A stretch of DNA of 34,379 nt, taken from Nitrincola schmidtii. Lineage in GTDB: Bacteria > Pseudomonadota > Gammaproteobacteria > Pseudomonadales > Balneatricaceae. Position numbers and translations under genes: made by a program. Under the pieces are notes generated by a model. It saw only the letters and a list, made by a program, of their open reading frames with translations, searched no databases and was not told the origin of the DNA. The stretch is from the NCBI RefSeq assembly GCF_008973715.1, contig NZ_WBOL01000020.1, positions 1-34,379 of the forward strand, given 5' to 3'. This document shows, in pieces, positions 9,289 to 18,497 of the stretch; position 1 is the stretch's first letter, and every line of letters begins with the position of its first letter.

Positions 9289-9414
9289 TTCCACGTTTTA
9301 ATGGACGTATCGCCGAGGTGCAAGGATGCACCGCCCTGCTATTCTGTTGACTGCTATCCTTAAATTGCCCAGCAATGCTATGCTTAATAGAGACCTTGCA
9401 TCTTGAGCAGTAGC

Positions 9415-11823
9415 ATGATTTCAAAACTTAAGCCGTTTTTTCTATCTCCTTGGTGCTTACCTATTACCCTGTTGTTTTGGGCAGTCGTAGTCTACATCAG
9501 TTTTATTAATCGCTCGGTGATGATGAATCACATTGAGTTAGAGATGGCGCGTATGAAGGGTGAATCGGTATTTCACTTAATTCAGACAACTCGCCAGTGG
9601 AATACACAGCATGGTGCTGTTTATGTGCCTGAAACTGAGAAAACACCTGCGAATCCCTATCTGTTTGTACCTGAAAAAAATATAACCAGTCCATCGGGCC
9701 GGCCACTAACACAGGTTAATCCTGCCTATATGACTCGGCAGTTAGCGGAGTTACTTCAGGGTGGTGCTGTTGAAATCAGTCTAACCAGTAAACAACTGTT
9801 AAACCCTAATAACTACCCCGATGACTGGGAATTAGCCGCACTGAATCTATTTGAGCAGCAAGGCGTTCAGCACGTTGAGGAGCAGGTCGATCAGCACTTT
9901 CGATATATGGCACCTTTGTACATCGAGCCGGGATGCCAAGCCTGCCATTTCGGTTATCAAGTTGGCGATATTCGTGGTGGGATTAGTGTGAGTTTTCCTA
10001 TCTACGAGATCACCCATTTAACCGATGGTTTACGGCATAAAATGTTGCTGTTACATCTTTTTGCCTTTGTATTGTTGTCACTGATTGGATTAATAATGGC
10101 CATCAGTATTCGAAAACTCCTTGAAAGTATGGATGATTCCGATGAGTTGCGGCAGTTAAATACTGAGCTGGCGCTTCAGCATCAAACGCAGCAAACCCTA
10201 GTGGCTGATTTGAATGCTACGCGTATTGAAGCTGAAAAATCTAATCAAGCTAAATCGGATTTTCTGGCTACCATGAGCCATGAAGTGCGCACTCCAATGA
10301 ATGCGATTATCGGATTATTAGAGTTGCTCTCCAGAGACAAGCTTCCAGCCAAGCAGCAGGGTTTAGTGAGTGTGATACGCCAATCTGCGGCCGTCTTGTT
10401 ACGTATACTGGATGATATTCTCGACTTTTCGCGTATGGAGTCGGGTCGACTGGCATTAGAAACGATTCCCATCCGTGTAACAGATATACTGCAGGGGGTT
10501 AAAGCCATTTTTGATCCTATGTGCGAAGAACGTGGTGTCAAATTTATCATCAAGGTTGATTCTAAAGTCCCTGAATATGTCCATGGTGACCCGGTAAGAA
10601 TCAGTCAAATCTTACATAATTTAATTAGCAATGCCGTTAAGTTTTCTTCTGGCACCAAAGACTCATCAGGCAACTCTTTAGGAGAAGTGACGGTCATACT
10701 GGATTGGCTCAATGAGCAGCTTCAGATAGACGTCATCGATAACGGTATAGGCATCTCTGACGAGCAAATAGAACGAATCTTTACTCCTTTTTCTCAAGCA
10801 GAAGGCTCTACGACACGAAAATATGGAGGCTCTGGTTTAGGTTTGACTATTGTTCAACGACTGACGGAGATGATGGCTGGACAATTAACCCTTGAGAGTG
10901 AACTCGGTAAAGGTTCAAGATTTACAGTGACTTTACCTCTGTTAAAATTGAACGCCAGTGAAATTGAACTGATTTCTCAGCAACCAGTACTGCTTAATCC
11001 ATCTCAATCCTTGGATCCTTCAGAGTTCCGCATCTTGGTTGCTGAAGATGATAAGGTCAATCAGATGGTGATTGAACAGCAGCTGAGTAAGTTAGGCTAT
11101 CAGTTTAAAGTGGTGAATGATGGCGTTGAAGCTCTCGATGCTTGGCTCCAGTCACCAGATTCCTTTGATTTGATTTTGACAGACCTGCATATGCCGAATA
11201 TGGATGGTATCTCTCTGATCCAGGCGGTGCGTAATGCAGAAGCTAAACGTGCTTCTGTCGATACTGCTATCCCGATTGTTATTTTAACGGCGAATGTTTT
11301 ATCCGGTGTTCTTAATAAACCTGAATTGAAGTTATCAGGACAGCTGACCAAACCTGTTCGATTAGATCAGTTTGCCGACACGTTAAGGCATGCATTATCA
11401 CAGCGAGATGGAAAAAATAGAGCTATCAATATCAGTCATGAACAGCATGAGAATGAGCAGTCTAAAACCGAGTCAACACCATCTCTTCCCGTGTATGATC
11501 CGCAGGCGCTACAGCAGGTCGTGGGTGATAATCCAGAAACCATCAGAGAGCTCCAGCAGATGTATATCAGCGTATCCGAGCAGCAAATGCAGTTGCTGAG
11601 TGAGTTGTGGCAGACAGACCAATCGGATCAGCGCGTGATGTTGCTGCATAAGCTGAAGTCATCTTCACGCTCTACGGGTGGTATGCATTTAGGTCAGTGC
11701 TTCGAGCATTACGAGCACTTAAGTCGTGAAGTCTCAGAGCCACTGTCTTTAGAGGATTGGATTGCATTGAAAAAAGAATATGAATTGTTTATCAATCTGT
11801 TGAGGCAGGAGATCCATGCTTAA
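9415..11823 (+). CDS. Hybrid sensor histidine kinase with haem-binding DUF3365 sensor, receiver and HPt
   Basis: 802 aa from ATG 9415; a TTG at 9403 in the same frame is possible, and neither has a strong ribosome binding site. In order: membrane segment ~8-30; a periplasmic DUF3365 (Tll0287-like) domain with a c-type haem motif CQACH at 174-178 and GDIRGGISVSFPI after it; membrane segment ~210-232; a coiled linker; HisKA with SHEVRTPMNAIIG (His289); HATPase with DNGIGI and GGSGLGL; a receiver with AEDD, acceptor Asp590 in TDLHMPN and TKPV; and a C-terminal HPt with LHKLKSSSRSTGG (His745). This is a complete phosphorelay on one chain, probably reading periplasmic redox state or a gas through the haem. 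The response regulator overlaps its end by 8 bp. Ligand unknown. Confidence 0.9.
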   Translation: MISKLKPFFLSPWCLPITLLFWAVVVYISFINRSVMMNHIELEMARMKGESVFHLIQTTRQWNTQHGAVYVPETEKTPANPYLFVPEKNITSPSGRPLTQVNPAYMTRQLAELLQGGAVEISLTSKQLLNPNNYPDDWELAALNLFEQQGVQHVEEQVDQHFRYMAPLYIEPGCQACHFGYQVGDIRGGISVSFPIYEITHLTDGLRHKMLLLHLFAFVLLSLIGLIMAISIRKLLESMDDSDELRQLNTELALQHQTQQTLVADLNATRIEAEKSNQAKSDFLATMSHEVRTPMNAIIGLLELLSRDKLPAKQQGLVSVIRQSAAVLLRILDDILDFSRMESGRLALETIPIRVTDILQGVKAIFDPMCEERGVKFIIKVDSKVPEYVHGDPVRISQILHNLISNAVKFSSGTKDSSGNSLGEVTVILDWLNEQLQIDVIDNGIGISDEQIERIFTPFSQAEGSTTRKYGGSGLGLTIVQRLTEMMAGQLTLESELGKGSRFTVTLPLLKLNASEIELISQQPVLLNPSQSLDPSEFRILVAEDDKVNQMVIEQQLSKLGYQFKVVNDGVEALDAWLQSPDSFDLILTDLHMPNMDGISLIQAVRNAEAKRASVDTAIPIVILTANVLSGVLNKPELKLSGQLTKPVRLDQFADTLRHALSQRDGKNRAINISHEQHENEQSKTESTPSLPVYDPQALQQVVGDNPETIRELQQMYISVSEQQMQLLSELWQTDQSDQRVMLLHKLKSSSRSTGGMHLGQCFEHYEHLSREVSEPLSLEDWIALKKEYELFINLLRQEIHA

Positions 11824-12769
11824 CACACCTGATAAAGTGCTAATACTATCTGACAGTCAGGCACTGATTGATACCATTGAGCTATTACTGGAAGATACCA
11901 TCAAGCATCTGCAGACTTTTGTGCACTATAAAGCAGAAGTAGCAGCTAAAGCGTTTCGTCAGCAACAAGTTGATGTGGTGGTATTAGCCTATCAAGATCT
12001 TCAGGTAGCGATAAGTGTGAGAGACGCCATTGCACGTCTTCACCAACCAAATGATAAGCCATTTCATGCAATCGTGTTATGCAAAAAAGATACGGTCGTA
12101 AAAGCCTATGAACTTAGTAGAAAACGATTCTTTTATGATTATGTGGTTTTTTGGCCGTTAGGTTATGACCCCTATCGCTTAATCATGTCGATTCATCAAG
12201 CCATAGATGATTTGGGTTACAACGCCGATATTCAGATGCAGCGTTTAGAGCTTGAATCACGACGTCAGCGTATTCAAGCGGTGAGCCGTTTAGTGGAACA
12301 GCTGTTAACGGATCAAAAAGCGAAAAAAGCAGAATTAGAAACCATGATTCGTGTCGCTTTGAAAAAGCTGACGATGCCTGTCAGATTAGATCAATCATCC
12401 ACGCAAGAACAGCTGACGGTTTTAGTCATCGATGATGATGAGTTTCAGTGCATGGTGTTGAAGAAAATACTGGAAGAGGCGGGTTTTAAAGTACAGCTGG
12501 CCACCAGTGGTGAGCAAGGCCTTGGTTATCTAGAAAAGTCCAAAGTCGATATTGTTTTACTTGATGTAATGATGCCGGGTTTGAGTGGTATCGACACATT
12601 ACGCCAGTTAAAGAATGACCCAGAACTATCTGATATACCGGTTATCATGGTGAGTGGTCATCATGAGAAAGAAGTGGTCTTGGATTGTATTATGCTAGGT
12701 GCCATTAATTACATCGTTAAACCAGTCAGTAAAGAGGTGTTACTATCACATCTACCTGGTCATCATTAA
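11816..12769 (+). CDS. Response regulator with N-terminal pseudo-receiver and C-terminal receiver
   Basis: 317 aa, starting inside the kinase gene with AGGAG before the ATG, so the two are translationally coupled. Residues ~5-130 have the outline of a receiver (VLILSDSQALIDTIELLLED, VDVVVLAY, YVVFWPLGYDPY), but the acid pair, the acceptor Asp and the Lys of the usual K-P are replaced (SDS, LAY, W-P), so it cannot be phosphorylated. A helical linker at ~135-190 joins it to a complete receiver at ~200-312 with IDDDEF, acceptor Asp250 in LLDVMMPG and Lys302 in VKPVS. There is no DNA-binding or enzyme domain, so the output is probably through protein contacts. It is the likely partner of the upstream kinase and ends 4 bp from the convergent amphi-Trp gene. 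Confidence 0.85.
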   Translation: MLNTPDKVLILSDSQALIDTIELLLEDTIKHLQTFVHYKAEVAAKAFRQQQVDVVVLAYQDLQVAISVRDAIARLHQPNDKPFHAIVLCKKDTVVKAYELSRKRFFYDYVVFWPLGYDPYRLIMSIHQAIDDLGYNADIQMQRLELESRRQRIQAVSRLVEQLLTDQKAKKAELETMIRVALKKLTMPVRLDQSSTQEQLTVLVIDDDEFQCMVLKKILEEAGFKVQLATSGEQGLGYLEKSKVDIVLLDVMMPGLSGIDTLRQLKNDPELSDIPVIMVSGHHEKEVVLDCIMLGAINYIVKPVSKEVLLSHLPGHH

Positions 12770-12773
12770 ATAG

Positions 12774-13049
12774 CTAGTTAGTGATTTTGAGAGTGTCACT
12801 TGCAGGCTGATCTTTGCCCGTGCATTGGTCTCGCCAAGTGATTTTGACGCACAGCTTATTAAATCCAGACTGTTTCATGGCTAACACATCAAGGTTAAGT
12901 AAACCCTCAGGTTTTAGTTTAATTTTACCGCTGCCATCATCCAGTTTGATGCTTCCGTTATCTAATCCATCGATGAGTGCTTGAAGAACTTTCTTAACGT
13001 CATTGGGTTCTTGAAGTGATTCGTGATGAAAAGTATTCTTTTTACTCAT
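12774..13049 (-). CDS. Amphi-Trp domain protein
   Basis: 91 aa. FHHESLQEPNDVKKVLQALIDGLDNGSIKL, GKIKLKPEGLLNLDVLAMKQ and LCVKITWRDQ are the pattern of the amphi-Trp domain (alternating polar and hydrophobic strands ending in a conserved Trp). AGAGG precedes the ATG. It is the last gene of the four-gene cluster, 21 bp after the phosphoesterase gene. Amphi-Trp proteins have no known biochemical role; I recall them from TIGRFAM notes as companions of an ATP-grasp enzyme and a kinase in 'GAK' systems, which matches the neighbours here. Confidence 0.75.
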   Translation of the reverse strand: MSKKNTFHHESLQEPNDVKKVLQALIDGLDNGSIKLDDGSGKIKLKPEGLLNLDVLAMKQSGFNKLCVKITWRDQCTGKDQPASDTLKITN

Positions 13050-13070
13050 AGGTAGCCTCTAGTTGTAATT

Positions 13071-14420
13071 TCACAGAAAATGCTTAGTCATTACTTGAAG
13101 CTGTTCAGGCTTAAAGCATTTTGCTGCTGCATAGTCACTGCTAATACCGACAACCCATCCAGAAGGATGCAAAAGCGTCACTGCCGCACCGACACCTGAT
13201 AGACCCTCTTCCTGGCGCGATACCTGATTTAGGGTTGCGTCACATTCGAAATGTATCATATTTGCACGAAAAGTAATCCTTTGACCATGATGCAGGTTAC
13301 GATGGCCGTGTACAAAAGCATGAATACCCGTTTGATGCAGGGCTTGGCGACTTGCAGAGCTGAGAAGGGGATCTTGTGATCGATACTTAGTACGCAGCAT
13401 ATTTCCTAATGCACTGAAATAAAGCTGAAAGGCATCGCCATGCCGTGCTTTATGAAATTCCTCGTTTAAGCTTTCAAGACCTTCATCAGCCAGCCGTTTA
13501 GCCATCACATCATCGCAACCGGCATGCAAAAAGACGAAGCTACCTCGTCGACAGCCCAGTTGCTGATCTCTTACAAACCAATGAAACTCGCCACTGGGTT
13601 CAAGAAACAGCTGGCGCCAGCGTTCCAATGCAGCAAATATTTCCTGCATACTGAGTTGTGCTTTTTTTGCGGCACGAAAAAAACGCTGCTTTCGTGATTC
13701 AAGTCGGCTAAGTTCGGTATGGATTTGGCTTGCGGTTAAATGGCTAGTGGCTTCTTGTTGAAAGCGAAGATGCCAGTCATCACTTGGTAACAGTCTGGCT
13801 AAGCACTCGGTTTCAGAAGGTAAGCGCGACTGTTCATCGGGCGTAAGTGGGTATTCATTCAGTAGCTCGACACACAGTGGCATCACTTTGCTACCCAGAC
13901 GAATTAAAAAATGACCGTTCAATGTACAATCAGGTGTTTTAAGTGTATTCACCGCTAACTGTAAGCGTAGGTCATGGTTGCCACTGAGTAGAGTCACGGC
14001 GATTTTCTGATCGATCAGTTGTCGGATGAGTCGGAGTAAGGGCAGGTTAGCGGGACCTTTATCTAAGCAGTCTCCACCGATAATGATCTCAAATACTGGC
14101 GCATTAGCTGCAAGAGCAATCTGATCAGGTTGCCTACCATGACGCACAAATAATCCGCTGGCTACTAAAGAAGCCGAAAACGCGTCGGCATCTGCATGCA
14201 GATCAGTCACAAATAAGACCAGATGGTCCGGCCACTGCCAAGCATCGGGGTTAGCCAAACGTGTTAACTCTTCAGCCAGTGATTTATCAACCTGACCATC
14301 GACCACCCAACCATACTGCTTCTGTTCGAGCCAGCTGCAGAGTCTGTTGGGTAAGGTCGCGTCTATCCATTCGTGGCCGAGATACTTAGGCAGAAATGGC
14401 ATCAGGTCATGGCTAGGCAT
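13071..14420 (-). CDS. Calcineurin-like metallophosphoesterase
   Basis: 449 aa. The metal-binding motifs of the family are in order: VTDLHAD near residue 70, GGDCLDKG near 115, LSGNHDLRL near 147, FLHAGCDD near 295 and FVHGHRNLHHG near 370. Two inserts, one with a helical run rich in Arg/Lys (SRKQRFFRAAKKAQ), make it longer than a minimal enzyme. The start has GAGGT and lies 4 bp after the ATP-grasp stop, so it is part of the operon. The substrate is not evident; together with the kinase-like and ligase genes it may remove a phosphate they add or use. No signal peptide, so cytoplasmic. Confidence 0.85.
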   Translation of the reverse strand: MPSHDLMPFLPKYLGHEWIDATLPNRLCSWLEQKQYGWVVDGQVDKSLAEELTRLANPDAWQWPDHLVLFVTDLHADADAFSASLVASGLFVRHGRQPDQIALAANAPVFEIIIGGDCLDKGPANLPLLRLIRQLIDQKIAVTLLSGNHDLRLQLAVNTLKTPDCTLNGHFLIRLGSKVMPLCVELLNEYPLTPDEQSRLPSETECLARLLPSDDWHLRFQQEATSHLTASQIHTELSRLESRKQRFFRAAKKAQLSMQEIFAALERWRQLFLEPSGEFHWFVRDQQLGCRRGSFVFLHAGCDDVMAKRLADEGLESLNEEFHKARHGDAFQLYFSALGNMLRTKYRSQDPLLSSASRQALHQTGIHAFVHGHRNLHHGQRITFRANMIHFECDATLNQVSRQEEGLSGVGAAVTLLHPSGWVVGISSDYAAAKCFKPEQLQVMTKHFL

Positions 14421-14424
14421 AGCG

Positions 14425-15315
14425 TTAACCTCTTAAGGACTCAACTGCAAAGTCTGCAAGACGCTCAGCTAAGTTAATACCGCTGCCGGCATGAGCTCCC
14501 TTAAATCCGCCAAGGGCAGATACCTCAAATACCACCGGTCCATCTTGGGTTAGAGCCATATCGACAGTGGCATAGTCTAAATCGAAGGCTGCTTGAGCGC
14601 GTTGAGCGATCTGAATCATGTCGGAGGTCGGTGAACAAGGGCCATAACGACCACCACTATTGATGGTGGTATTCCACGCTTTTTGACCTGCAATCCGGGA
14701 ATAGGCACCTTGATAATTACCGTTGATAAAGATCAGTCCCATGTCCTCGCCTTTTAAATCAACAAATTGCTGTAGGTAAAGTAAAGGATGTCGGGTTTTA
14801 TAACGAACTAACTGAGCCCGTAGTAATTTATCATTTTGGTTTGATTTTAGTACCTGCATACCCCGCGCTTTGGTGGAAAAAAGTGGCTTTAGAATAGCCT
14901 GTCCCCATTCGTGAACCTGCTTCATGGCGGTATCAACAGATTCGGTCACCAAGGTAGGTGGCATGGGAATCTTATGGTTGTGTAAGGTGACACTGCACGC
15001 CAATCGATCCAGTAAGCGGATGAGCGAGTTGGCTGAGCTAAATATCCTAACGCCAGCCTCTTCTGCTACACGCAGCATCTCTAAACGTTCAATACAGACT
15101 GGGCTATAGGTCGTGCCGACTTTTCGAATGATGATGCCGTCTAACTCACATAGATGATGACCGGATGAAAGAAGCTGTCCTCGGCTAAAATCCAGTTCAG
15201 TAGAGGATAAATCTGTCACTAAGCGAAAGCCTGTGCGTGTTTCCAGTGCATCTGCGAGAACTTCAGTCGACCATTTTCCGGGGTTGCCAATCACAGCGAT
15301 GCGGGGCTTATACAT
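14425..15315 (-). CDS. RimK-like ATP-grasp ligase (GAK-system type)
   Basis: 296 aa. The N-terminal part is a Rossmann-like preATP-grasp region (RIAVIGNPGKWSTEVLADAL, DGIIIRKVGTTYS). The ATP-grasp fold follows: MPPTLVTESVD, AILKPLFSTKARGMQVL (ATP-binding Lys), LYLQQFVDLKGEDMGLIFI, RIAGQKAWNTTINSGGRYG and VVFEVSALGGFKGAHAGSGI, in which the Glu binds metal. Such enzymes join a carboxylate to an amine or thiol through an acyl phosphate. The start lies within the end of the kinase-like gene (8 bp overlap), so production is coupled. The closest family I recall is the 'GAK system ATP-grasp enzyme'. Substrates unknown. Confidence 0.82.
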   Translation of the reverse strand: MYKPRIAVIGNPGKWSTEVLADALETRTGFRLVTDLSSTELDFSRGQLLSSGHHLCELDGIIIRKVGTTYSPVCIERLEMLRVAEEAGVRIFSSANSLIRLLDRLACSVTLHNHKIPMPPTLVTESVDTAMKQVHEWGQAILKPLFSTKARGMQVLKSNQNDKLLRAQLVRYKTRHPLLYLQQFVDLKGEDMGLIFINGNYQGAYSRIAGQKAWNTTINSGGRYGPCSPTSDMIQIAQRAQAAFDLDYATVDMALTQDGPVVFEVSALGGFKGAHAGSGINLAERLADFAVESLRG

Positions 15316-16930
15316 TCAAGATTTCCTTGAGAGGTAGTGGATAGTCTTTGCTATCTTGGTGTTTTAACAAATGTTCAAGTAGATAAACGCCACGTTCGTA
15401 GAGCGACTTTGCATGGCTTTCATCCAGAATAAATCGTGTAGAGGTAATCAAGCTTCGTGCTAACCCAAGGGCCATGCGCTTATTAAAATGATGATCTTTG
15501 TGTGTTGTTGCAAAGGTCTTTGCCATGTCATACAGCTGAGTTGCCATGATAGCAATCAACTGGCGTGATTCGAGATCAAATAGAGGCAAGCGTAATCCAG
15601 AGACAATAAATACCGAGACATCTTGAACGTAATCCATATGCCCCGAACGATGTAAGTCGATAAATCGTAACTTTTGCTCTTTGCTATCAAAAATCACGTT
15701 GTCGAGATTGAAGTCACCATGAATATAAACCGAAAAGGGTGCTGGGTGCTGTTCATCGAGCCGAGCTGCCTGTGCCAGAATCGCTTTCAAGGCAGGTCGC
15801 TGTAAGTCGCCAATGAGTGTATTGGTAACATCAAATTCGGGATGTATATTTTGTACGGCAGGTAAACGTTTTTTTAGCTGTTGAATAAAACGGGCGCTAA
15901 CTTTTTCATTCTGTTTAGTGGAGCTCCAGATTTTTGGAAGCATCTCGCACATCTGCAGCATGGCTAGATCTAACTCATTCTGGTGCTGAGTTAGCACTAT
16001 GCGTTCAAGTGTTTTGCCGGGTAAGTGTTCAATAATTAACGCACCAGAACTGCCTTTGTGGTGTTGAGATAAAATTTGTGGAGCGATACCGGGAATGATT
16101 TCGTTCCAACGTTCAAGACCTCGACGTTCCTCTTGTACTTTTCTTAAGGCACCTTCTTTCAATACCCCTAGGGTTCGATCATCTTCATGCGTAATCGCTG
16201 AAATTGAACTTCCGGAGCGCGTTTCTGCAATGGTTTCTAAACTCAAGTTATCCCATTCATCATGGCCGAGGCTAGATACCATGGCACGGAGTGAAAGGAA
16301 CTGTTTCATGTTCATTGGTTGACCCAAAAGAACCGCTAGCAAAGACTCACTGATATTGGTGAGGGCTGATCCCATATCTAAAATATAACGCGCAATGAAC
16401 AGGCTGCTGATCAAACCCTCGGTGTTTTTATGTTGCTTTAATGCTTCAAGATGTTCCCGTCGTGCTTTTTTGTAAAAGCGACTGAGTTTATTTCTAACCT
16501 TGCCAATTTTTAACGCTGTGTGGGCATTGTTGGTTTCGAGGATTTGTTCAACTCGTTGCAATGACTTTTCGATCTGTTTTAGGCGTTTGTCATATCGGTG
16601 ATCATTGATTAGCTTGCGATGTTTGAGGTGTTGTAACTCTCTGGCAGCATCACGGCATAAACTTGCGATGCGCTCAAGCTCATCTGCTAGATCTCCGGCC
16701 GCTCTCAATGACTGAGGATCAAAGCGTTCGGTATCACTGAAGGCTTTTAGACAGCGCGCATGGGTTCGTTGCTTAAGGTTATAGCTGTGTCCACTGCGCT
16801 CGGTGATAGCACGTGTCAGCGCTGCAGACGGTGAGTCAATCAGGAGCAACAGGTTTTGTAACTGAGAACGCACCTCAGCAAGCAGAAAAGTAAGCTGCTG
16901 TTTAACGTCGATGGGTAGCGTCAGTTGCAT
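15308..16930 (-). CDS. Two-domain protein: PhoU-like helical domain plus APH-type phosphotransferase
   Basis: 540 aa. The first ~200 residues are long amphipathic helices (RAAGDLADELERIASLCRDA and similar), with the look of a PhoU-like bundle; that label is by eye only. Residues ~240-510 are an aminoglycoside-phosphotransferase/ABC1-like kinase: VLKEGALRK, ALIIEHLPGKTLE, the catalytic loop HGDFNLDN at 404-411 and the metal-binding IDLHRSG with Asp425. It is the first gene of the four-gene minus-strand cluster and its stop overlaps the ATP-grasp start. The kinase domain should phosphorylate a small molecule or a protein side chain; no resistance role is suggested by the setting. Its ribosome binding site is weak. 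Confidence 0.78.
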   Translation of the reverse strand: MQLTLPIDVKQQLTFLLAEVRSQLQNLLLLIDSPSAALTRAITERSGHSYNLKQRTHARCLKAFSDTERFDPQSLRAAGDLADELERIASLCRDAARELQHLKHRKLINDHRYDKRLKQIEKSLQRVEQILETNNAHTALKIGKVRNKLSRFYKKARREHLEALKQHKNTEGLISSLFIARYILDMGSALTNISESLLAVLLGQPMNMKQFLSLRAMVSSLGHDEWDNLSLETIAETRSGSSISAITHEDDRTLGVLKEGALRKVQEERRGLERWNEIIPGIAPQILSQHHKGSSGALIIEHLPGKTLERIVLTQHQNELDLAMLQMCEMLPKIWSSTKQNEKVSARFIQQLKKRLPAVQNIHPEFDVTNTLIGDLQRPALKAILAQAARLDEQHPAPFSVYIHGDFNLDNVIFDSKEQKLRFIDLHRSGHMDYVQDVSVFIVSGLRLPLFDLESRQLIAIMATQLYDMAKTFATTHKDHHFNKRMALGLARSLITSTRFILDESHAKSLYERGVYLLEHLLKHQDSKDYPLPLKEILNV

Positions 16931-17036: not shown

Positions 17037-18215
17037 TTATTTAACAAAGAGTTGGCGAGGGAAGTTGCATAGGGTTTCAACCCCTGTTTCAGTGATCAGG
17101 ATACTTTCGGTAATCTCTATACCCCAGTCTTCTTGCCAAATACCTGGCATAAAGTGAAACGTCATGCCGGGTTTCAGCTCGGTTTCATCCGATGCACGCA
17201 AACTCGAGGTTCGCTCACCCCAATCAGGTGGATAACTCACGCCGATGGGATAGCCACAACGAGCACCTTGTCGATCAATACCATATTTTTCCATTACTTT
17301 ATCGAGGGCATTGGCAATATCACAAGTTCTATTACCCGGCTTTGCTTGCTCCAGTCCAGCGTCAATGGCTTCTAGTAGTGCTTTTTCAGCATTGAGGAAA
17401 CGCTGGCTGGGTTTACCCATGTAAAGTGTCCGAGACATAGGCGCATGGTAACGTTTGTAGCAACCGGATATTTCAAAAAACGTACCTTCGTTGGCTTTAA
17501 AGGGTTTTTCATCCCAAGTGATGTGTGACGCGGATGCCTCTTTACCCGAAGGCAATAGCGGCACAATGGAAGGGTAGTCACCACTATAGCCATCCACTCC
17601 GGCAATGGCGGTTTCATAGATTTGCGAGACCACGAAACTTTTCGGTACGCCGACTCGGGCAACATCCAAAATACGTTGATGAATCTTCGAGGTGATGCGT
17701 CCGGCGATACGCATAAACTCAATCTCTTTTGCGGATTTAATCGCTCGACACCAGTTAACTAGATTATGACTATCGACAAAACGGGCTTCAGGAAGTGTTA
17801 GCTTTAGGGATCGATGTGCATCAGCGGTGTAATAGTAGTTATCCATTTCGGTGGCGATGGTTGCACCGTGCCAGGCCTTTTCAATAAAGATATTTTCGGC
17901 AATCCACGTCATCGGGTGATGGTCGAGGTTTTGAACATATTCCTCGGGATAGCTGATCAAGTTTTCTTTTTTCATAAAACAGCGCAATAACGCTGCATTC
18001 TCATCCATGCGTCGACCAAACCAGATAGGTTCTTCAAGATCGACATGCACGATCACCCCTTGATGAACATAGAAAGACCAGCCGTCATAGCCTGTCAGCC
18101 AGTTCATATTGCCGGGATCGGTAGCAATCAAAATGTCTACTTTCCGTAATCGCATCTCGCGGCGGACCTTATTGACCCGCTGTAGGTATTCTTTTTTTGT
18201 AAATGCCAGTTTCAC
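17037..18215 (-). CDS. doeA: Ectoine hydrolase DoeA (M24/creatinase fold)
   Basis: 392 aa from GTG 18215. The protein follows DoeA/EutD: VDILIATDPGNMNWLTGYDGWSF, IWFGRRMDENA, TWIAENIF, the middle HITWDEKPFKANEGTFFEISG, HAPMSRTLYMG, GARCGYPIGVSYPPDWGE and TFHFMPGIWQEDWGIEITES. It opens the ectoine ring to N-acetyl-diaminobutyrate, the first step of ectoine use as a nutrient or of osmolyte turnover. As in creatinase, the usual M24 metal Asp pair is replaced (FEISGCYKRYH). The start chosen has a perfect AGGAGGTG 6 bases upstream; an ATG 18 bases earlier would place that site inside the gene. No doeB or other ectoine gene is next to it. Confidence 0.85.
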   Translation of the reverse strand: MKLAFTKKEYLQRVNKVRREMRLRKVDILIATDPGNMNWLTGYDGWSFYVHQGVIVHVDLEEPIWFGRRMDENAALLRCFMKKENLISYPEEYVQNLDHHPMTWIAENIFIEKAWHGATIATEMDNYYYTADAHRSLKLTLPEARFVDSHNLVNWCRAIKSAKEIEFMRIAGRITSKIHQRILDVARVGVPKSFVVSQIYETAIAGVDGYSGDYPSIVPLLPSGKEASASHITWDEKPFKANEGTFFEISGCYKRYHAPMSRTLYMGKPSQRFLNAEKALLEAIDAGLEQAKPGNRTCDIANALDKVMEKYGIDRQGARCGYPIGVSYPPDWGERTSSLRASDETELKPGMTFHFMPGIWQEDWGIEITESILITETGVETLCNFPRQLFVK

Positions 18216-18220
18216 CCAGA

Positions 18221-18228
18221 CACCTCCT
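18221..18228 (-). promoter_or_regulatory. Shine-Dalgarno that fixes the doeA start
   Basis: AGGAGGTG on the minus strand, complementary to the 16S 3' end and 5-6 bases before the GTG at 18215. It falls within codons 2-5 of the longer ATG-initiated reading, so GTG is the likely start. Confidence 0.7.
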
Positions 18229-18497
18229 GCCATTCGCTCAGTTTGATGGAGCAGTTGCTAAGCAATTTTTCCTTTTGCTATCGATCAATTCGTAATTATT
18301 ACTATGGATAATTATTATTTCTTGATGGTTTAAGCATAATCTGCAAATAGCGGGAGTTCAATTCAAGACTGTTCTGAAAACGACACAAGTTTGTCGTGAC
18401 TATTATCGATGTGCAGGATTAGGAAATTTTTCTGCCTAGAAAGCGTTAATTGAAGTAACGTAGTTAGTCTGAAGATTTTTACTTTAAGGAGCTGAAG

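Follow-up and report, generated by a model that had tools for sequence, protein, structure and literature searches.

The window, a stretch of 34,379 nucleotides of Nitrincola schmidtii DNA, carries four genes on the minus strand that are as tightly packed as the first-pass annotation had described. The ORF list of the window confirms their coordinates and their spacing, which runs, from the kinase gene to the amphi-Trp gene, through an 8-bp overlap, a 4-bp gap and a 21-bp gap. In that order, the genes are:

15308 to 16930, minus strand: PhoU-APH fusion kinase, 540 aa (PhoU at about residues 9–200, APH-type kinase at about 230–500)
14425 to 15315, minus strand: GAK system ATP-grasp enzyme, 296 aa, RimK/MptN-like (TIGR04356)
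13071 to 14420, minus strand: PPP-like metallophosphatase, 449 aa, nearest to ApaH (PF00149; profile search of the PDB)
12774 to 13049, minus strand: amphi-Trp protein, 91 aa, apparently accessory (TIGR04354)

A promoter scan gave 2 sites against a shuffle mean of 10.3, fewer than in the shuffles, and a terminator scan 7 sites against 5.6, about equal.

Could such an arrangement have come about by chance? At E up to 1e-20, 18 of 144 related genomes contain a relative of the kinase. Because all 18 fall within the 19 genomes whose grasp_GAK match exceeds the cut-off, the co-occurrence of the two, and with it the gene arrangement, lies far beyond chance. Relatives of the four genes keep together across genera, and the linkage extends in one case beyond Proteobacteria, to Stieleria (L105), a planctomycete.

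The kinase combines two domains. Its N-terminal half passes the Pfam PhoU model (39.1 bits, cut-off 23.5), its C-terminal half reaches 50.9 bits against Pfam APH (cut-off 23.2), and its relatives in the PDB are PhoU (4q25, E 3.8e-13) and APH(3') (4feu, E 7.5e-6). The first-pass annotation was right in calling an APH-type kinase, while the 'helical domain' it saw beside it is PhoU, which it missed. Residues 9–198 cover nearly the full length of PhoU, a phosphate signalling protein. Unlike PhoU itself, the domain is fused to a kinase, its metal motif is partly degenerate (one residue is lost, ERIAS compared with ERIGD in locus L046), and the PhoU_full score is 31.7 against a cut-off of 130.25. 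The AlphaFold model has a mean pLDDT of 91.9, and K258, HGDxNxDN 404–411 and D425 are conserved in an alignment of 14 sequences. With its fold and catalytic motifs the kinase resembles APH(3') enzymes, and APH(3')-Ia provides the best Foldseek matches of the kinase domain model, as would be expected of an antibiotic-inactivation or phage-defence cassette. We reject such a cassette as hardly conceivable: the kinase stays far below the cut-off of NF033068, the APH(3') aminoglycoside phosphotransferase model (50.8 bits, cut-off 205), none of the four proteins has a PADLOC match at E up to 0.01, and, unlike APH(3') kinases, this one is fused to PhoU and linked to the genes of other GAK enzymes.

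The 296-aa protein passes TIGR04356, 'GAK system ATP-grasp enzyme', with 397.3 bits (cut-off 300). It belongs to the fold family of the RimK, MptN and LysX ligases, counts RimK and LysX (1uc8) as its PDB relatives, and keeps K143, R207, D252 and E264, the ATP-grasp residues conserved in an alignment of 14 sequences. Its scores for the corresponding NCBIfam models (MptN 160 bits, RimK family 111.1, LysX 100) nevertheless lie under every one of those cut-offs; for the RimK-type alpha-L-glutamate ligase, TIGR00768, the cut-off is 143.4, and the ExN motif is lacking as well. At positions 215, 217 and 266, all ten outgroup sequences (relatives scoring below the GAK cut-off) have R, N and N, whereas the window enzyme has N215, T217 and S266, residues found in 89, 88 and 90 of 91 GAK ATP-grasps. 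The earlier claim of 'intact catalytic motifs' is borne out by conservation in alignments with relatives; since the ExN asparagine is serine in 90 of 91 GAK sequences, the window included, 'intact' is here true of a family-specific active site (ExS) and not of that of RimK.

The phosphatase scores 27.8 bits against PF00149 (cut-off 21.5), and DxH 73–75, GDCxDKG 116–122, GNHD 147–150 and GH 372–373 are conserved in 16 sequences. A profile search of the PDB leads to ApaH (2dfj, E 2.6e-4), the symmetrical Ap4A hydrolase of the PPP family, with which it shares metallophosphoesterase motifs. The matched stretch spans only about 50 residues, however, and the 449-aa window protein has additional conserved blocks and reaches 20.1 bits in the ApaH comparison, where the cut-off is 176.

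Is this, then, a GAK system in which some parts have been exchanged? We take TIGR04354 (amphi-Trp), TIGR04355 (HprK_rel_B), TIGR04356 (grasp_GAK) and TIGR04357 (CofD_rel_GAK) to form one system, the name GAK appearing in the NCBIfam names of TIGR04356 and TIGR04357. Judged from titles and the beginnings of abstracts, the open-licence literature yielded nothing on it. The 'GAK-like' label given to the operon at first reading holds, as the 296-aa and 91-aa proteins both pass their models (amphi-Trp, TIGR04354, 47.4 bits, cut-off 31). The accompanying idea of other GAK parts being replaced by an APH-type kinase and a phosphoesterase was rejected, because both are regular partners beside HprK_rel_B in ordinary loci. 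An ATP-grasp scan of a one-genome-per-species set confirmed 521 loci, 441 of which lie outside the neighbourhood survey of 91 non-redundant GAK loci. Clustering recovered GRASP in 90 of these 91, KIN in 89, MPE in 76, HPRK in 75, HISP in 69 and AMPHI in 63, many of the misses being contig ends. The conserved order is COFD< KIN> GRASP> HPRK> (SIXA-NUDIX>) HISP> MPE> AMPHI>, with the SixA-NUDIX fusion gene present in 28 of 91 loci and KIN directly upstream of GRASP in almost all loci with sufficient contig. None of the PhoU-APH kinases, PPP-like phosphatases and histidine phosphatases scanned exceeds any NCBIfam cut-off.

The main inference of the first-pass annotation is thereby inverted: the unusual feature of the window is a loss of parts, not a substitution. 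Its kinase and phosphatase are related to the full-locus partners; unlike the full system, its genome yields no HprK_rel_B or CofD_rel_GAK match, and none for the histidine phosphatase partner either. HprK_rel_B was matched neither in the window genome and 10 other genomes of the genus nor in Marinospirillum, and CofD_rel_GAK in none of the same 11 genomes. Used as a query, the histidine phosphatase of locus L034 found nothing in nine of nine genomes of the genus, nor in Marinospirillum; it was found in three of three Marinobacterium-type genomes, including the one from which the query came. CofD_rel_GAK is passed by 27 of the 144 related genomes; among the 9 that have HprK_rel_B, 8 pass it. 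In a class sample, six of the eight genomes over the grasp_GAK cut-off pass HprK_rel_B too. As the HprK_rel_B test failed in its genus, the locus is filed as a reduced variant and not as a full member. The reduced forms make up one monophyletic group (support 0.995), which sits among lineages that carry HPRK. The view that the missing HprK_rel_B, CofD_rel_GAK and histidine phosphatase are losses is thus supported.

Which molecule do the remaining enzymes act on? The amphi-Trp protein had been proposed as carrier or substrate, a suggestion now much weakened. It scores 25.3 bits against Pfam PF20068, narrowly under the cut-off of 27, and its AlphaFold model (pLDDT 87.5) consists of one helix and four main strands; a fold search of the PDB returned nothing with E < 1, and the best PDB match of its sequence is a designed protein (E 0.035). 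No amphi-Trp match over the cut-off was obtained in three genomes of the genus (G003, G007 and G008, with estimated completeness of 100%, 100% and 84%) or in Marinospirillum, though the enzyme genes are kept there, and that of locus L051 is a short frame, so that it is absent or truncated in five genomes of the reduced clade. Being dispensable, it is unlikely to be the sole target, and from its sequence distribution it is probably no obligatory substrate but an apparently accessory protein. LysW-type carriers require a conserved C-terminal glutamate; no such residue was seen among 52 aligned amphi-Trp proteins (every second row of the alignment), whose C-termini are variable, as they are in a 13-sequence alignment. 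An amino-group carrier pathway of the LysW/LysX kind, in which the ATP-grasp would load an amino acid onto amphi-Trp and the kinase would phosphorylate that amino acid, would account for the relation of the ATP-grasp to LysX and for a small protein being co-encoded with it. Given the absences and the variable C-terminus, and a kinase that is APH-like and outside the amino-acid-kinase family, we consider it very unlikely.

A physiological context is suggested by the regions upstream of GAK loci. These were scanned with a hand-written Pho-box matrix, the sites being predictions, and compared with 447 control upstreams from 60 separate windows, whose positions were hand-picked from the window's relatives and are not random over all lineages. 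The best Pho-box scores of 86 GAK upstreams differ from those of the controls with a Mann-Whitney p of 3.4e-9; 33 of the 86 exceed the control 95th percentile (expected 4.3), and 0 of 150 column-permuted matrices match this enrichment. Thiomicrorhabdus, Roseibium and Marinomonas are among the lineages with such a site, and L037 is one of the loci that have it upstream. Thinning at 80% identity leaves 19 of 59 clusters over that percentile (expected 3.0), and coarse single-linkage thinning to 18 clusters leaves a weaker signal (median p 0.007, maximum 0.17), the cluster median exceeding the threshold in 5 of the 18. Upstream of the window operon there is no convincing Pho box: the best-scoring site reaches 10.8, where the controls have their 95th percentile at 11.4, and is located inside the preceding gene, at a distance of about 220 bp. 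The remaining KIN upstreams within the genus reach 4.3–8.7, and the five doeA upstreams 5.1–9.4. In two members of the reduced clade, N. tapanii (L050) and Marinospirillum (L064), GAK loci lie near pst-phoU with an MCP-like gene directly before the kinase, and the Pho-like sites upstream of that gene score 14.5 and 17.3, a region inspected only once the KIN upstreams themselves had given no such site.

Neighbouring genes point in the same direction. Genes of the phoU, phoB-like or polyphosphate type lie within 1.5 kb of 9 of 91 GAK modules where 1.7 are expected, a comparison with a post hoc gene list, queries taken from the same loci, and control matches that were hand-entered from the 10-kb survey and possibly under-counted. 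Examples are a phoU within the operon (L089), an adjoining phoU (L121) and an adjoining phoB-like gene (L102). Within 10 kb, the counts for phosphate and polyphosphate genes (11 of 91 loci, 4 of 60 controls) do not differ significantly. CHAD, CYTH or Ppx-GppA genes, which are of the polyphosphate type, occur within 1.5 kb of six modules (L105, L132, L134, L130, L118 and L044), the CYTH score of L118 (23.5) being barely above the cut-off of 23.2. A family from nine loci considered as PstB proved mixed and is PstB by the stricter score only in L050, L064, L105 and L121. As a group, GAK systems are supported as being tied to phosphate physiology.

What might be written and erased? RimK-like ligases tag protein C-termini, and the phosphatase is PPP-like; together with the kinase-PhoU fusion, these features would suit a switch in which a phosphate and an amino-acid tag are put on and taken off a protein from another locus, such as one of the Pst/PhoR complex contacted by PhoU. 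APH-type kinases act mostly on small molecules, however, and the three-gene operons L047, L048 and L064 contain no candidate target gene, so that we rate a protein target as rather unlikely.

The kinase domain of PPIP5K is an ATP-grasp. According to PMC11836120, the enzyme unites a messenger-making kinase domain with a phosphatase domain. By analogy with eukaryotic inositol pyrophosphate signalling, the ATP-grasp, acting as a kinase and not as a ligase, might build a small phosphorylated messenger jointly with the APH-type kinase and also, where the locus is full, with HprK_rel_B, while PPP-like, histidine and NUDIX phosphatases would degrade it. The pairing, in full loci, of the ATP-grasp with a histidine phosphatase (69 of 91 loci surveyed) and sometimes with the SixA-NUDIX fusion, the Pho-box enrichment and pho-gene adjacency, the six modules with CHAD, CYTH or Ppx-GppA genes, and the three altered positions that are invariant in the outgroup would all agree with a messenger. 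Yet the nearest models and structures of the ATP-grasp are amide-forming ligases (MptN and RimK; RimK and LysX in the PDB), and the reduced form in the window has no histidine phosphatase and, within its operon, no SixA-NUDIX gene, which makes a messenger pathway unlikely on balance. A more far-reaching proposal, distinctly unlikely in our estimate, sees GAK as a hitherto unrecognised phosphate-starvation pathway of bacteria. Its PhoU-fused kinase, ATP-grasp and dedicated phosphatases would produce and break down a dedicated messenger or store, phosphate-rich or phosphorylated, as the bacterial equivalent of signalling by inositol pyrophosphates, and the Nitrincola operon would be its minimal writer/eraser core.

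The explanation that we prefer, tentatively and with a probability of roughly 45%, is a secondarily reduced GAK locus, with a core of PhoU-kinase, ATP-grasp and phosphatase and an accessory amphi-Trp protein, that serves a phosphate-linked modification. The PhoU domain may make the kinase respond to phosphate status, as PhoU does with PstB and PhoR; the kinase would phosphorylate a hydroxyl group of the target, the ATP-grasp enzyme would turn a carboxylate into an acyl phosphate and then couple it, and the phosphatase would take the phosphate off again. In concert, these enzymes would place a modification and remove it again under phosphate limitation, on either a small molecule or a protein.

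For the family, our results add three regular components to the GAK system, namely the PhoU-APH kinase, the PPP-like phosphatase and the histidine phosphatase, and describe reduced forms as small as three genes. The tie to phosphate stands on three lines: the PhoU fusion, the Pho-box enrichment and the adjacency to pho genes. GAK carries NCBI model names, yet no attached function; a role in phosphate starvation is now a testable idea.

Filed by NCBIfam model names and cut-offs, the window operon is a reduced variant of the named, uncharacterised GAK system, on which searches of an open-licence library found no paper. ORF calling on the window bore out all four reading frames described in the first-pass annotation, with their strand and spacings. 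The model searches proposed there likewise upheld its GAK-like label: in an NCBIfam scan the 296-aa protein passes the GAK ATP-grasp model TIGR04356 (397.3 bits, cut-off 300) and the 91-aa protein the amphi-Trp model TIGR04354 (47.4 bits, cut-off 31), the latter protein narrowly failing the Pfam Amphi-Trp model (25.3 bits, cut-off 27). The 540-aa kinase has two Pfam domains, PhoU (39.1 bits, cut-off 23.5) and APH (50.9 bits, cut-off 23.2). A profile of 14 kinase relatives matches PhoU 4q25 (E 3.8e-13) and APH(3') (E 7.5e-6) in the PDB, and the AlphaFold model, built with 44 sequences (mean pLDDT 91.9), places a helical bundle ahead of a kinase-like domain, with APH(3')-Ia as top Foldseek matches. 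The 449-aa protein is a calcineurin-like phosphoesterase, closest in the PDB to ApaH across about 50 residues only. Those members of the kinase, phosphatase and histidine phosphatase families that were scanned pass Pfam's general domain models and reach no NCBIfam cut-off; three regular parts of GAK loci therefore lack a specific model name.

Does the gene set stay together elsewhere? The ATP-grasp model (grasp_GAK) passes its cut-off in 19 of 144 related genomes. Kinase relatives (E up to 1e-20) were found in 18 of the 144 genomes searched, every one among these 19; the one without, G008, has a contig that begins just before the ATP-grasp gene. The top-scoring locus (L034, in genome G014) reads CofD_rel_GAK (divergent, 549 bits), PhoU-APH kinase, grasp_GAK, HprK_rel_B (364 bits), SixA-NUDIX, histidine phosphatase, PPP-like phosphatase, amphi-Trp. 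Scanning genome contigs with the ATP-grasp alignment yielded 521 confirmed loci, of which the best 80 were analysed; 1 + 18 + 80 loci minus 8 duplicates gave 91 non-redundant loci. One of the two scan patterns included the ATP-grasp serine S266, which left loci with a different residue at that position to the second pattern alone. Hosts among the best 80 of 521 are mostly gamma- and alphaproteobacteria, and include the planctomycete Stieleria and a Mariprofundaceae MAG. This survey of the ligase's neighbourhood, also proposed at first pass, places kinase, phosphatase and amphi-Trp genes in 89, 76 and 63 of the 91 loci.

Gene families in the 91 non-redundant GAK loci, assigned by clustering; contig ends account for many misses.
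ATP-grasp family: 90/91 loci
Kinase family: 89/91 loci
Phosphatase family: 76/91 loci
HprK_rel_B type: 75/91 loci
Histidine phosphatase: 69/91 loci
Amphi-Trp: 63/91 loci
SixA-NUDIX: 28/91 loci
CofD: 25/91 loci

In 13/91 loci the kinase gene is closely preceded by a stand-alone NUDIX-like gene (e.g. L135:7854-8384 and L119:726-1223, the Pfam NUDIX check covering L119 only), and one full GAK locus ends facing a second, more distant ATP-grasp gene in convergent orientation (L037:5253-6059). The CofD_rel_GAK model is passed in 27/144 genomes, 19 of these 27 having no grasp_GAK over cut-off (e.g. G012, G013, G022, G027); it therefore also exists outside the GAK locus.

The window is not filed as a full member because searches for HprK_rel_B and CofD_rel_GAK came back empty: neither matches in any of 11 genomes of its genus, 9 of which pass grasp_GAK. 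HprK_rel_B also has no match in Marinospirillum alkaliphilum. The L034 histidine phosphatase, used as query, has no match in 9/9 tested genomes of the genus nor in Marinospirillum, and is found in 3/3 Marinobacterium-type genomes, its own being one. Of 274 genomes sampled across the class, 8 are over the grasp_GAK cut-off. Six of the 8 are over the HprK_rel_B cut-off too; the other two are the window genome and G241, a 560-contig assembly (99% complete) from a genus in which G360 passes both models. HprK_rel_B is also over cut-off in a seventh genome, G407, where the ATP-grasp match is split and under cut-off. Rooted on 10 relatives from below the cut-off, the ATP-grasp tree groups the 10 Nitrincola and Marinospirillum loci in one clade (support 0.995) inside HprK-bearing lineages, with supports of 0.66-0.96 at deeper nodes and an outgroup not monophyletic by script test; a midpoint-rooted ATP-grasp plus kinase tree agrees. 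The first branch of the ATP-grasp tree is L046, whose 7.7-kb contig also carries no HprK or phosphatase gene, as is the case for the 10-kb contig of L101. The nesting of the reduced clade inside HprK-bearing lineages favours loss over an ancestral short form.

The gene set can do without amphi-Trp. Its model finds nothing over cut-off in G003 or G007 (both with an estimated completeness of 100%), in G008 (84%) or in Marinospirillum; G003, G007 and Marinospirillum keep the kinase, ATP-grasp and phosphatase genes, and G008 keeps the latter two on a short contig. Amphi-Trp is likewise unmatched in G009, where the contig ends inside the phosphatase gene. The frame in Nitrincola sp. A-D6 (L051:8023-8199) has 58 aa only, matches the model partially and is apparently truncated. 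In G004 and G006, grasp_GAK is not over cut-off. Across 52 aligned amphi-Trp sequences W72 is invariant and the C-terminus variable; the fold predicted for amphi-Trp (pLDDT 87.5), with one helix and four main strands, matches nothing in the PDB at E <1.

Three lines link GAK to phosphate: the PhoU fusion, adjacent phosphate genes and Pho boxes. In Ketobacter (L121) the module lies between pst-phoU genes and phoR-phoB, with pstS, pstC, pstB, phoU, phoR and phoB over cut-offs; L089 has a phoU gene within the GAK operon, L102 an adjoining phoB-like gene assigned by similarity only, and six modules have a CHAD, CYTH or Ppx-GppA gene no more than 1.5 kb away. A phosphate-type gene falls within 1.5 kb of 9/91 modules, 1.7 being expected from 60 control windows (p 5e-5), in a post hoc test with queries drawn from GAK loci themselves; within 10 kb there is no clear difference (11/91 GAK loci, 4/60 controls). 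Scored with an uncurated matrix, the best Pho-box site within 250 bases upstream of the first gene is stronger in the 86 GAK upstream regions than in the 447 control regions (p 3.4e-9); 33/86 exceed the control 95th percentile (4.3 expected) and 8/86 the 99th (0.9 expected). The four strongest control sites all fall in L182 and L188, the sole control windows with pst genes, which suggests that the matrix works. Permuting its columns 150 times never gave an equally good separation of the two sets (AUC 0.70, permuted maximum 0.56). After average-linkage thinning at 70, 75, 80 and 85% identity, 11/36, 18/49, 19/59 and 26/69 clusters exceed the threshold; coarse single linkage to 18 clusters gives a median p of 0.007, a worst draw of 0.17 and 5/18 cluster medians over threshold.

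The window operon itself has no convincing Pho box (best score 10.8, threshold 11.4, inside the upstream gene), and neither have the upstreams of the other doeA-linked relatives or those of G003 and G007. Its phosphate role is therefore one that we infer from relatives and the PhoU domain. In N. tapanii and Marinospirillum phoU-pst genes lie downstream of the module, and an MCP-like gene directly precedes the kinase, with Pho-like sites of 14.5 and 17.3 upstream of the MCP-like gene, a region examined only after kinase upstreams scored low. Between module and phoU-pst lie GAPDH-like and MFS-like genes (L050:13872-16120, L064:12088-14333), which resemble an ArsJ-type arsenate-export pair, with Pho-like sites of 17.6 upstream of the GAPDH-like gene in both loci. 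In the window, a DoeA-like ectoine hydrolase gene (17037-18233, minus strand; TIGR02993 595 bits against a cut-off of 613, a narrow miss) precedes the kinase by 106 bp in the same direction; it recurs in L042, L043, L045 and L051 and does not adjoin the kinase in L047, L048, L050 and L064. A hybrid sensor kinase (best model TorS, below cut-off) and a response regulator (9403-12769, plus strand) converge on the operon, ending 4 bp from the amphi-Trp gene; response regulator relatives adjoin the module in L042, L049 and L051.

What might the ATP-grasp enzyme do? Compared with 10 outgroup relatives, GAK ATP-grasps keep K143, R207 and D252, and E264 in 90/91; N215 (89/91), T217 (88/91) and S266 (90/91) are GAK-specific, the outgroup having R, N and N, each 10/10. 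In the alignment with RimK, E264 and S266 fall on its ExN motif, which has a metal role. The altered site hints at a substrate or chemistry other than glutamate ligation. Amide ligation remains the prior, because the closest ligase models to the 296-aa protein are MptN (160 bits) and RimK (111 bits), both below cut-off. In eukaryotes, PPIP5K is an ATP-grasp enzyme. Among rival readings the most interesting is that of a phosphate messenger, a small molecule that the ATP-grasp and the histidine/NUDIX phosphatases might handle, by analogy with eukaryotic inositol pyrophosphates (PMC11836120).

A regulated module of writers and an eraser best fits. The PhoU domain would be its sensor or docking part, the kinase a writer, the ATP-grasp a ligating writer and the PPP-like phosphatase the eraser. 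HprK-type enzymes can strip phosphate using inorganic phosphate as acceptor; this reaction would suit phosphate sensing in full loci, and the reduced form dispenses with HprK.
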